45,607 nucleotides of DNA from contig JAUIJI010000008.1 in assembly GCA_030431435.1 (NCBI GenBank), forward strand, positions 1 to 45,607. The letters are read 5' to 3'. This DNA comes from Alphaproteobacteria bacterium. GTDB lineage: Bacteria > Pseudomonadota > Alphaproteobacteria > Sphingomonadales > Sphingomonadaceae. Below are positions 3,021 through 28,031 of this stretch, in pieces. Position 1 is the first letter of the stretch. Each line of letters begins with the position of its first letter. The translations under genes and the position numbers were made by a program. The notes under the pieces are model-generated. The model made no database searches. It was not told the origin of the DNA and saw nothing but the letters and a program-made list of their open reading frames with translations.

Positions 3021-3757
3021 CTTTCGCCGCCACTGTCCTGACGCTCTATCCGGAGATGTTTCCCGGGCCGCTCGGCGTGTCGCTGGCGGGCCGCGCGCTG
3101 GAGCGGGGGGACTGGTCGATCGAGACTGTCCAGATCCGCGACTTCGCGACCGACAAGCACCGCACGGTGGATGATACGCCGGCCGGTGGCGGTGCGGGCA
3201 TGGTGCTGAAGGCGGATGTGCTGGGGAGCGCGCTTGACCATGCCATAGAGGCACAGCCTGAGGTTTCAATCCTCGCCATGACGCCGCGCGGCAAACCGAT
3301 CACGCAGGAGCGCATTCGCGCAATCGCATCCGGCCCCGGCGTCACCATCATCTGCGGCCGTTTCGAGGGCTTTGACGAGCGCATTTTCGAAGCGCGTCCA
3401 AGAATCGAGGAAGTGAGCCTTGCCGATATCGTGCTGTCGGGCGGGGAACCGGCGGCATTGGCCATATTAGACGCTTGCATTCGCCTGCTTCCCGGCGTAA
3501 TGGGCGCGCCTTCAAGCGGTATTGAGGAAAGCTTCGAAAGCGGCCTCCTGGAATATCCGCAATATACCCGACCTGTTGAATGGGAAGGGCGCACGATCCC
3601 TGAAGTGCTGCGATCGGGGGATCATGCGAAGATTTCGGCATGGCGAAAGCACATGGCGGAAGAGACTACTCGGTTACGCAGGCCGGACCTTTGGGAGCGT
3701 CATGAGGGCGCTCGGGACCAGCCTGCCTCTGGCGCGCGGCGTGAAATGAAGGATTAG
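3017..3757 (+). CDS. trmD: tRNA (guanine-37-N1)-methyltransferase TrmD
   Basis: TrmD methylates G37 of tRNAs reading CNN codons, preventing +1 frameshifts. The 246-residue protein shows the SPOUT trefoil-knot motifs: [12 protein letters not shown] (about 58-69), [10 protein letters not shown] (about 113-122), [15 protein letters not shown] (135-149) and [10 protein letters not shown] (194-203). Length is normal. The start overlaps the end of the preceding membrane-protein gene (ATGA), and rplS begins four bases after its stop. The insertion of membrane-protein genes between rimM and trmD is unusual, but trmD itself looks intact. Confidence 0.96.
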
Positions 3758-17420: not shown

Positions 17421-18356
17421 ATGATCGCATTCGTCTTTCCGGGGCAGGGCAGCCAGAAAGTGGGCATGGGCGCAGAGCTTGCAGCCGCCAGCGCAGCCGC
17501 GCGCGAAGTGTTCGAGGAAGTGGACGAGGCGCTGGGCCAGAAACTCACCGCCATCATGATGGATGGGCCGGAAGACCAGCTGACGCTGACCGAGAACGCA
17601 CAACCCGCGATCATGGCACATTCGATCGCCATCGCCCGCGTGCTGGAGCGTGATTTCGGCGTGAAGCTGTCGGAGAAGGGCGAGGCTGTCGCCGGTCACT
17701 CGCTGGGCGAATATTCGGCGCTGGCGGCCGTTGGCGCCTTTTCGCTGGCGGATACGGCGCGGCTGCTGAAGCTGCGCGGGCAGGCGATGCAGCAGGCCGT
17801 GCCGGTGGGCGTGGGCGGCATGTGCGCGCTGCTGGGTGCAGACCTTGAAAAAGCCACTGCGCTCGCTGAAGCTGCGGCACAGGGTGAGGTGTGCGAAGTC
17901 GCCAATGACAATGATCCGGGGCAGGTCGTCCTGTCCGGCCATGCCGGCGCAATTGCTCGCGCGGTGGAACTGGCGAAGGACCATGGCTGCAAGCGCGCCG
18001 TGCCGCTGCCGGTCTCCGCGCCGTTCCATTGCTCGCTGATGCAGCCTGCCGCCGATGCGATGGCAGAAGCGCTCGCCGCAACCCAGCCGCAGCCGATGCT
18101 GCTGCCGGTCTATTCCAACTTCACCGCCACGCTCACCAGCGATCCTGCCGTGGAGCAGGACCTGCTGGTCAAGCAGGTGACCGGCCGCGTGCGCTGGCGC
18201 GAAAGCATGGAAGCGATGGGCGAGGCAGGTATCACGCGCTACGTGGAACTGGGCGGCAAGGTCGTCGGCCCGATGATCCGCAAGATCGTGGCGGACAGCA
18301 CACAGGACAGCCTCGTCTCGATGGCTGATATCGAGGAATTCGCGAAAGGACTTTGA
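17421..18356 (+). CDS. fabD: Malonyl-CoA:ACP transacylase
   Basis: Loads malonate onto acyl carrier protein for fatty-acid synthesis. The 311-residue protein has FVFPGQGSQKVGMG at the start, the active-site GHSLGEYSA (Ser94), the carboxylate-binding Arg119 in LKLRG, and catalytic His203 in SAPFHCSLM. An ideal AGGAGG lies 10 bases before the ATG at 17421; longer starts upstream are rejected. fabG would normally follow at once, but a GxxExxY element lies between them. Confidence 0.95.
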   Translation: MIAFVFPGQGSQKVGMGAELAAASAAAREVFEEVDEALGQKLTAIMMDGPEDQLTLTENAQPAIMAHSIAIARVLERDFGVKLSEKGEAVAGHSLGEYSALAAVGAFSLADTARLLKLRGQAMQQAVPVGVGGMCALLGADLEKATALAEAAAQGEVCEVANDNDPGQVVLSGHAGAIARAVELAKDHGCKRAVPLPVSAPFHCSLMQPAADAMAEALAATQPQPMLLPVYSNFTATLTSDPAVEQDLLVKQVTGRVRWRESMEAMGEAGITRYVELGGKVVGPMIRKIVADSTQDSLVSMADIEEFAKGL

Positions 18357-18380: not shown

Positions 18381-18860
18381 ATGAATCACGCGGAGACGCG
18401 GAGACGCGGAGAGGGCGAGATTGCCGTCGATGAACTCTCGGCAGAGGTCATCGATGCTTGCATCGCGATTCATCGTGAACTGGGGCCGGGATTGCTGGAA
18501 AGTGTCTATGAACTGGTGCTGGCTTCTGAACTGGAGCGAAGGGGCTTGAAGGTCGCCCGGCAGGTGCCGGTCGACATTTCGTTCCGCGACCAGAACCACC
18601 CGGCGGCGTTTCGTATCGATATTCTCGTCGATGACCGTCTCGTTCTGGAGATCAAGTCAGTCGAGCAGCTTACTAGGGCGCACGCGAAGCAATTGCTGAC
18701 TTACTTGCGTCTCACGCACCAGCCCGTAGGGCTGCTTCTCAATTTTTCTGGTGCTACCATGAAGGAAGGTATCAGGCGGATCGTCAACGAACACCGGCAG
18801 CCGGAAGCGCCCTCCGCGTCTCCGCGTCTCCGCGTGAAAAATTCTATTGGAGAGCGATAA
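18381..18860 (+). CDS. GxxExxY protein (PD-(D/E)XK-like) carried in an inverted-repeat element
   Basis: A 159-residue protein of the GxxExxY family: GPGLLESVYE (35-44) holds the name motif (G37, E40, Y43), followed by a nuclease-like core with Asp80 (FRIDILV) and Glu90-x-Lys92 (LEIKS), then QLLTYLRL and VGLLLNFSG. The fold suggests a PD-(D/E)XK enzyme, function unproven. The N-terminal residues (HAETRRRGE) and C-terminal ones (SASPRLRVK) are encoded by the two arms of a 25-base inverted repeat. The stop codon abuts the fabG start (TAAATG) and the fabG ribosome binding site lies in its last codons. Codons and location suggest insertion into the fab operon. Confidence 0.88.
   Translation: MNHAETRRRGEGEIAVDELSAEVIDACIAIHRELGPGLLESVYELVLASELERRGLKVARQVPVDISFRDQNHPAAFRIDILVDDRLVLEIKSVEQLTRAHAKQLLTYLRLTHQPVGLLLNFSGATMKEGIRRIVNEHRQPEAPSASPRLRVKNSIGER
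18387..18411 (+). repeat. Inverted repeat, left arm of GxxExxY element
   Basis: A 25-base arm made of cac then repeats of gcggagac, six bases inside the GxxExxY start codon. It is a perfect reverse complement of 18812-18836; both arms then share ggcg next to the interior, with a two-base offset. A related solo copy (20 of 25 bases) lies at 27937-27961. Confidence 0.85.
18812..18836 (-). repeat. Inverted repeat, right arm of GxxExxY element
   Basis: Reverse complement of the left arm, 25 of 25 bases. It encodes the SASPRLRV end of the GxxExxY protein. The element spanned by the arms is about 450 bases. No target-site duplication is evident in the flanks. Confidence 0.85.
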
Positions 18861-19622
18861 ATGTTCGACCTTACCGGAATGAATGCCCTCGTCACTGGCG
18901 CTGCTGGCGGGATTGGATCGGCCATCAGCCGTGCTCTGGCCGCACAGGGTGCGCGGCTCGCGCTTTCGGGTACCAATGCCCAGAAGCTGCGCGCCTTTCG
19001 CGAAGAGCTGAACGACAGCTACGAACATGACGCGGGCCCGCATGTCGAGATCACTTGCGATTTGTCGAACCGCGAGCAGGTGGACGAGCTGGTGCCCGCC
19101 GCGCTCGATACGCTGGGCGGGATCGATATCCTCGTCACCAATGCGGGTATCACGCGCGACAACCTTGCCATGCGGATGAAGGACGAGGAATGGGCCGATG
19201 TGATCACCATCAACCTTGAATCGACCTTCCGCCTGATGCGCGCCGCTGCGCGCCCGATGATGAAGGCGCGCTTTGGCCGCGTGATCGCCATCACCAGCGT
19301 GGTGGGGGCCACCGGCAATCCGGGGCAGATGAACTATTGCGCTGCCAAGGCCGGGATCACCGGCATGACCAAGAGCTTCGCGCAGGAAGTGGCGAGCCGC
19401 GGCATCACCGCCAATTGCGTTGCCCCCGGTTTCATCCGCACGCCGATGACCGATGTGCTGACGGACGACCAGAAGGCCGCGATCAACACCCGCATCCCCA
19501 TGGGCCGCATGGGCGAGGGCGAGGATATCGGCGCTGCCGTGGCCTTCCTCGCCTCGAAGGAGGCGAGCTATGTCACAGGCCAGACGATCCACGTGAACGG
19601 CGGCATGGCGATGGTGAGCTGA
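18861..19622 (+). CDS. fabG: 3-oxoacyl-ACP reductase
   Basis: NADPH-dependent reductase of fatty-acid elongation. The 253-residue short-chain dehydrogenase has TGAAGGIG (12-19), NAG (94-96), and the catalytic Ser146, Tyr159, Lys163 (ITSVVG; YCAAK), ending HVNGGMAMVS. It is slightly longer than most FabG (about 245) because of an insert near NDSYEHDAGPH. A GGAGAG ribosome binding site lies within the last codons of the upstream GxxExxY gene. acpP and fabF, common downstream partners, do not follow here; dnaN does. Confidence 0.93.
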   Translation: MFDLTGMNALVTGAAGGIGSAISRALAAQGARLALSGTNAQKLRAFREELNDSYEHDAGPHVEITCDLSNREQVDELVPAALDTLGGIDILVTNAGITRDNLAMRMKDEEWADVITINLESTFRLMRAAARPMMKARFGRVIAITSVVGATGNPGQMNYCAAKAGITGMTKSFAQEVASRGITANCVAPGFIRTPMTDVLTDDQKAAINTRIPMGRMGEGEDIGAAVAFLASKEASYVTGQTIHVNGGMAMVS

Positions 19623-27845: not shown

Positions 27846-28031
27846 CGGCGATGGAATTATCCTGCCCGGCGCGGGGAGGGGGACCATCCGCAGGATGGTA
27901 GCGGCACCCTCTCATTGCTCTTGACCCATTTTGACCCTCGCAGAGGCGCAGAGACACGGAGTTTGCGGGAGCGCCCGCAAAGGCGGCCTGCCCCGGCGGA
28001 GGCGAAGCTAGCCGATGGTCTACACCGGAGG
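27846..28031. repeat. Repeat-rich gap with hairpins and a solo GxxExxY-type repeat arm
   Basis: Contains the hairpin ccatccgcaggatgg (27883-27897) beside ggggaggggg, a solo copy of the GxxExxY-element arm at 27937-27961 (20 of 25 bases identical), and a 7-base-pair stem ttgcggg / cccgcaa (27963-27980). No gene is supported. Similar small palindromic blocks recur at 30300-30600, so this is mobile or repetitive intergenic DNA. Confidence 0.55.

Follow-up and report, generated by a model that had tools for sequence, protein, structure and literature searches.

The window, by which we mean the whole stretch of 45,607 nucleotides of Sphingomonadaceae DNA analysed here, carries a small GxxExxY gene between fabD and fabG whose two ends are formed by inverted arrays of a short tandem repeat. 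The relevant features, in order of position, are the following.

17421..18356, + strand: fabD, the upstream neighbour (open reading frame)
18381..18860, + strand: GxxExxY (PDDEXK_3) gene of 159 aa with both arms in its reading frame (open reading frame, PF13366, TIGR04256, AF2 mean pLDDT 86.9)
18386..18416, + strand: upstream arm, consisting of TCAC and then three units of ACGCGGAG type, with the purine-rich strand inward (repeat search, shuffles)
18432..18782, + strand: core nuclease domain (conserved residues in alignment)
18807..18837, - strand: downstream arm, the same octamer array inverted (repeat search)
18861..19622, + strand: fabG, the downstream neighbour (open reading frame), adjoining GxxExxY in 25/130 loci
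27937..27961, + strand: possible solo arm, decayed and similar to the GCAGAGGC code, weak by itself

Results

The window gene and its two arms

An earlier note on this DNA had described a 25-bp inverted repeat around the GxxExxY gene. The repeat search confirms it in a slightly longer form (18386-18416 / 18807-18837), with arms of 31 nt that are 94 % complementary, contain a perfect 26-nt core and leave 390 nt in between. The ungapped arm score of 26 compares with a mean of 9.5 and a maximum of 18 in 2000 dinucleotide shuffles of both flanks; chance as the origin of the arms is rejected, as 0/2000 shuffles reach 26. The open reading frame coordinates likewise agree with the description of a gene that separates fabD from fabG, fabD ending at 18356 and fabG starting at 18861, directly after the GxxExxY frame. 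That the arms encode the ends of the protein itself holds for the window gene, and the downstream arm forms the C-terminus in many Sphingomonas loci too (SASPRLRVNQ-like tails); it does not hold for several relatives from the genus, whose arms fall outside the start-to-stop frame. It looks incidental that the arms code for protein ends.

The genome to which the window belongs (G000) is a draft of 163 contigs and 2.9 Mb, 90.5 % complete, with one member of the GxxExxY family. The solo relative of the arm reported at 27937-27961 does exist (CTCGCAGAGGCGCAGAGACACGGAG) and is a weak match, with 3 mismatches to the 16-mer. Matches to the 16-mer number 5 in the window, a count equalled by 2/100 shuffles, and no partner arm was found near the solo arm at up to 3 mismatches. 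The GCAGAGGC code belongs to the fabG-linked genes of three other genomes of the genus (G019, G027 and G037), and the solo octamer array of this type may be left over from an older one.

A PD-(D/E)XK family protein under purifying selection

The assignment of the window protein to the PD-(D/E)XK nucleases, previously made from a motif, is borne out by two profiles, PF13366 PDDEXK_3 (E 1.4e-39, 135.5 bits against a cut-off of 22) and TIGR04256 GxxExxY (E 7.3e-39, 132.7 bits against a cut-off of 35), both matched at full length, with the whole domain covered and the curated cut-off exceeded. These are the only profile matches in the unit, with none to a transposase. Across an alignment of 56 proteins E40, D80, E90 and K92 never vary, and Q104 and Y108 hardly do. 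The alignment includes 55 of the 59 named-genome loci that remained after 21/80 had been set aside for in-frame stops in the match, some of them only past the core; a stop inside the core occurs in only 3/130 loci. This set of conserved residues is what an active PD-(D/E)XK nuclease of the RecB, Cas4 and lambda exonuclease kind should have, the D, ExK and QxxxY motifs presumably belonging to that group.

The AF2 model has a mean pLDDT of 86.9, with residues 21-130 at 93-98 and the arm-encoded ends as its low-confidence part (blocks at 51 and 55-65). Its best Foldseek matches are chains of 4ic1 (SSO0001, which we take to be a Cas4) at E 7.8e-3, probability 1.00 and TMq 0.49; the third-ranked match is the splicing endonuclease 2zyz, lower ones include LHK-Exo, lambda exonuclease and AdnAB, and none reaches E <= 0.001. 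The predicted fold is thus only weakly placed nearest to SSO0001 and the lambda-type exonucleases. A sequence search of the PDB returned no relative at E <= 1, and our full-text searches of open-licence papers yielded none on PDDEXK_3/GxxExxY function or on flanking repeats. The dN/dS ratio is 0.04-0.22 in 7/8 GxxExxY pairs, the remaining pair being saturated: the gene is under purifying selection.

Inverted arrays bracket GxxExxY genes in many bacterial groups

We compared 130 GxxExxY loci, namely 80 from named genomes, 9 from the genus and 41 from a phylum sample. The 80 lean towards the window's protein because they are the best 80 of 585 confirmed; the 41 come from 50 places, with G000 and 8 partial matches excluded; and two of the loci (L107 and L210) are a duplicate record. 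Whether arms flank GxxExxY genes elsewhere had been raised in the earlier note, and most loci do have them: heptamer cores CRCNRAG, pointing inward and at least two per side, are present on both sides of 104/130 genes, compared with 9/130 on the wrong strand. The core spacing is 8 in 266 cases, 9 in 84, 10 in 21 and any other value in 21 in all. A run-based count found 70/89 loci (named genomes and genus) and 28/41 (phylum sample) bracketed, the wrong-strand counts being 5 and 2. Gene and repeats are strongly linked.

At 71/89 gene loci the arm score exceeds the maximum of 85 neighbour-ORF controls, and in 30/89 the best-matching partner is the downstream flank of the locus itself, where 1 is expected; the comparison includes four loci whose flanks are short. 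In the phylum sample 32/41 loci lie above the same threshold, with slightly longer flanks. At the other end, 15/89 loci do not pass the 99 % point of the controls and 9/41 phylum-sample loci score 16 or less, several of these 9 carrying other units. By record titles, the loci that score above the control maximum span about ten groups at phylum level, among them Pseudomonadota, Verrucomicrobia, Planctomycetes, Acidobacteria and Bacteroidetes as well as Cyanobacteria, Geobacter/Desulfo- groups, KSB1 and SAR324, and many of them are metagenome assemblies.

Arms were also inspected in plasmid and viral records, which lie outside the 130 loci. One viral contig (L123, with L124 identical in its letters) holds a distant GxxExxY gene between inverted arrays at 2745-2870 and 3370-3425, with an A+T-rich unit of ACTTAAAATTTT type unrelated to CRCNRAG; on this case, the link of GxxExxY to inverted arrays may be independent of the CRCNRAG unit. 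A 24.8-kb plasmid of Bacteroides finegoldii (L289) carries a 40 %-identical GxxExxY relative beside radA, with inward arms of CACAGAGGAC type.

The repeat code differs between loci and matches within a locus

Within the genus the code of the repeat unit varies by locus (GCGGAGAC, GCAGAGGC, ACAGAGGC, ACGAAGAC, GCAAAGGC), and both arms of one locus agree. With each arm extracted independently at the fabG-linked loci, own arms match at 18.9 versus 11.7 between loci on the same side (0/602 permutations); this extraction covers 24/25 loci, L055 having dropped out with no downstream core, and several downstream arms are shortened in it. A second comparison is biased towards own arms, because the arms had been chosen to match each other, and gave averages of 22.4 for own arms and 18.3 for the nearest same-site relatives (Wilcoxon p 0.002). 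In 10/25 fabG-linked loci the upstream arm is nearer to the upstream arm of another locus than to its own partner, despite the opposite bias of the extraction. Own arms match beyond same-site relatives, and therefore the two sides change code jointly over time.

The codes extend to arrays outside the genes. The genome G018 has three genes with three codes, and 59/64 of its outside-gene array matches are nearer to its own arms than to those of G019, with 4 ties and 1 opposite. G019 has two genes with two codes, and 11/17 matches are nearer to its own arms, 1 is a tie and 5 are nearer to those of G018. In both genomes the array matches overlap and are not independent of one another.

Gene-less hairpin elements

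A pattern search of G000 revealed inverted array pairs without a gene on the contigs C7, C65 and C82 and two more on C50; C22 carries an array. The pattern used in G000 was near its own code, and a general one served for G018 and G019. The elements measure about 60-200 bp, the larger ones having GC-rich inner hairpins and often a second, nested arm pair. Those on C7, C50 and C82 consist of outer GCGGAGAC-type arms around short GC-rich palindromes and a nested inner ACAGAGGC-type pair. Four G000 elements that were compared share one plan with each other and essentially only the arms, not the interior, with the gene unit. The two inverted ends of the C82 element fold as one hairpin (z -10.2 versus shuffles), and hairpins are also predicted for 19 elements from other genomes, in folds made without shuffled controls.

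The elements on C7 and C82 are each missing at the same site in 7/7 relatives. At the C82 site three relatives give an identical exact junction with a 3-bp overlap, GCCATCAG compared with GCCAT-element-CATCAG in G000. The 3-bp duplication (CAT) comes from C82 alone, where the preservation of two overlapping genes could also select for it. Both elements sit at gene pairs that overlap by a few bases in the relatives, and both genes are still intact. The gene-less hairpin elements look mobile or gained.

Two further observations concern these elements. The nested, Russian-doll arrangement, in which an outer pair of one code surrounds a conserved ACAGAGGC-type inner pair with GC-rich, REP-like palindromes, recurs in the C7, C50 and C82 elements of G000 (L002, L005, L019, L010), in G017 (L252) and in G018 (L244, L245), and no gene of the inner code was detected in G000. 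Beside the C82 element (L010, about 1017-1131) lies another, non-octamer repeat, for which G019 and G020 have dozens of matches.

Array number and gene presence

Across 40 genomes of the genus, the 6 that bear the gene contain 8-74 array matches and the 34 without it contain 0-12 (median 1; p 4e-5). In the phylum sample of 299 genomes, strict arrays occur in 19/32 gene-bearing genomes versus 14/267 others (p 3e-13). Both tests ignore relatedness, and 28/33 array-bearing genomes of the phylum sample fall in two families (f1 and f34). The strict pattern is absent from 13/32 gene-bearing genomes of the phylum sample, in part because their units differ. A backward-pattern control is not independent of the forward search, because the arrays also match the reversed pattern in a shifted register. 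Two genomes, G208 and G210, have 37 and 63 backward-pattern matches and zero forward ones, which marks a different repeat family. In G033 the fabG-linked gene (C1:937008-937355, L033) has an in-frame stop, and among the six genus genomes with the gene this one has the lowest array count (8).

The octamer-armed elements could be spread by another enzyme or by template switching during replication, with GxxExxY merely a passenger caught between arrays. Template switching is able to make and correct imperfect palindromes, some genomes of the genus carry arrays without a detected gene (G017, G030 and G038, with 12, 5 and 5 matches), and the sharing of little more than arms between gene unit and compared elements would also fit. 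However, it is GxxExxY that is bracketed in about ten phylum-level groups and not its neighbour ORFs, array number tracks the presence of the gene, the dispersed codes mostly match resident genes in G018 and G019, and the gene is under purifying selection. The RAYT enzyme was looked for through its Y1 family (PF01797), which appears in 3/40 genus genomes, namely G000 (a weak match, E 4.3e-9), G011 and G020. No Y1/RAYT match was detected in G018, G019, G027, G033 and G037, that is, in five of the six gene-bearing genomes, and RAYT as the mobiliser of the hairpins is rejected. We regard a passenger role as unlikely, while taking it seriously.

A second possibility is containment or repair. GxxExxY would then be a nuclease of the host by which octamer hairpins are trimmed or resolved; its arms would be an autoregulatory target, and the elements would spread by other means. 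A stationary gene beside essential fab genes and under purifying selection is what such a role would predict, the hairpins are stable in predicted folds, and the fold of the protein is nearest, though weakly, to exonuclease-type proteins and not to transposases. Against this, array matches are far more numerous in gene-bearing genomes, which is the opposite of what simple containment would give unless the gene is kept only under a high burden. We consider such a role rather improbable.

The gene unit at the fabG site

The earlier note had proposed that the unit of about 450 bp is itself mobile, in effect a transposon recognising its own ends, and had called for a search for fabD-fabG junctions without it. 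Neither of the two outcomes that it named as a refutation is observed, since most loci have arms and such junctions exist: among 30 FabD loci read in the 40 genus genomes, 15 have only 9-59 bp between the end of the FabD match and the start of fabG, 5 have the gene, 2 have other sequence in between and 8 have no fabG in the stretch. By eye the 15 short junctions contain no arms, except for octamer-like letters in G002 that may be a remnant. The family as a whole is found in only 6/40 genus genomes. One unit, on contig C6 of G019, is absent at the same site in G020, where 39 bp lie between the flank matches, and family matches number up to 8 per genome, fragments included, which also speaks for mobility. 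Against it stands the position of the gene directly upstream of fabG in 25/130 loci, mostly titled Sphingomonas, Novosphingobium, Sphingopyxis and Sphingomonadaceae, with one Arthrobacter; an annotation of Sphingomonas parapaucimobilis places GxxExxY there as well. The five near-identical unit pairs, one of which is a duplicate record, all have shared flanks, and no near-identical unit was found at different sites among the 130 loci, mostly one genome per species, a sampling that may overlook recent moves. Few relatives reside on plasmids (8/72,556 records at E <= 1e-10) or in viral loci (5).

Mobility of the gene unit is therefore not supported by the shared fabG-upstream place and the shared flanks of near-identical pairs, and a frequently jumping unit is rejected, no move being seen among the 130 loci. 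A transposon of this kind is in our judgement very improbable. The gene looks old and stationary, and its shared position suggests vertical inheritance. Ordinary inverted repeats of the fab operon, serving as terminator or attenuator hairpins, would agree with the ability of the arms to pair when the entire unit is folded in silico (z -5.9), but the same anatomy recurs in many groups at loci with no fabG nearby and, the letters in G002 apart, the 15 short gene-less junctions are without such arms, so that terminators are rejected and this explanation retains a negligible chance.

Discussion

We observe the bracketing of the GxxExxY gene by inverted arrays, codes that match within a locus, co-occurrence of gene and arrays, the presence or absence of two elements between relatives, purifying selection on the gene and conserved active-site motifs in its product. 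The reading that we favour, with rather more confidence than doubt, is a two-part system that resembles RAYT/REPIN and is built on an unrelated enzyme, a stationary GxxExxY nuclease with mobile cognate hairpins. Its first part would be the stationary gene of a small PD-(D/E)XK nuclease, placed between inverted arrays of CRCNRAG plus 1-3 nt (ACGCGGAG three times in the window), and its second part the dispersed gene-less hairpins of the same genome that carry the code of the gene.

What we infer beyond this concerns cleavage, recognition specific to the code, movement of the elements by GxxExxY and the route of copying. The nuclease would recognise single-stranded or extruded hairpins of cognate arrays, probably during replication, and would cut near the conserved outer end of the hairpin, TCAC or TCGC. 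Host repair or replication might then copy the hairpin into a new site, with duplication of about 3 bp as suggested by the one well-resolved site. For the arms next to the gene, a role as reference target or in autoregulation is possible. Both arms and the dispersed elements would stay on one code through repeated copying or conversion among arrays, and this code would drift between lineages.

In its widest form the proposal states that the GxxExxY proteins of many bacterial groups are small Cas4-like nucleases that read a tandem code of 8-10 bp in the arrays flanking their own genes and copy or insert gene-less hairpins of that code, with concerted evolution of the code in both arms of the gene and in the dispersed elements, and that they are the enzymes of a previously undescribed class of two-part mobile system; on this wider statement we are evenly divided. 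To our knowledge no nuclease of PD-(D/E)XK type acts as a sole mobiliser, and a search of the open-licence full-text literature found no paper describing a GxxExxY gene with cognate hairpin arrays. If the proposal is true, a widespread nuclease family of unknown function gains a role, short repeats of a class common among bacteria gain a source, and an arrangement like RAYT/REPIN has evolved a second time, independently, around an enzyme whose sequence is not that of a transposase. The variation of the code between loci, together with genomes that hold two or three differently coded genes, makes recognition directly testable.

Comparison with known systems

The closest parallel is RAYT/REPIN, which combines a stationary gene with cognate non-autonomous hairpins and has more elements where the gene is present (PMC8049555). 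The GxxExxY system is similar in having a gene at a shared position and dispersed hairpins of matching code, as seen in G018 and G019, and the likeness is one of how it would work, not of membership. RAYT is a Y1 tyrosine transposase (PF01797), whereas the enzyme here is a PD-(D/E)XK protein (PF13366). The ends also differ, being tandem arrays of 8-10 bp units here and a single REP palindrome in REPIN, and, unlike in RAYT/REPIN, the GxxExxY gene is itself bracketed by the arrays.

With Cas4, lambda exonuclease and RecB-type nucleases the protein shares the D, ExK and QxxxY residues and a predicted position near their solved folds, although the fold match is weak (best E 7.8e-3). The hairpin elements recall MITEs in being short, gene-less, inverted at their ends and present or absent between relatives; unlike the MITEs of DNA transposons, they end in tandem arrays with a changing code and share their arms with a gene that has no transposase profile.
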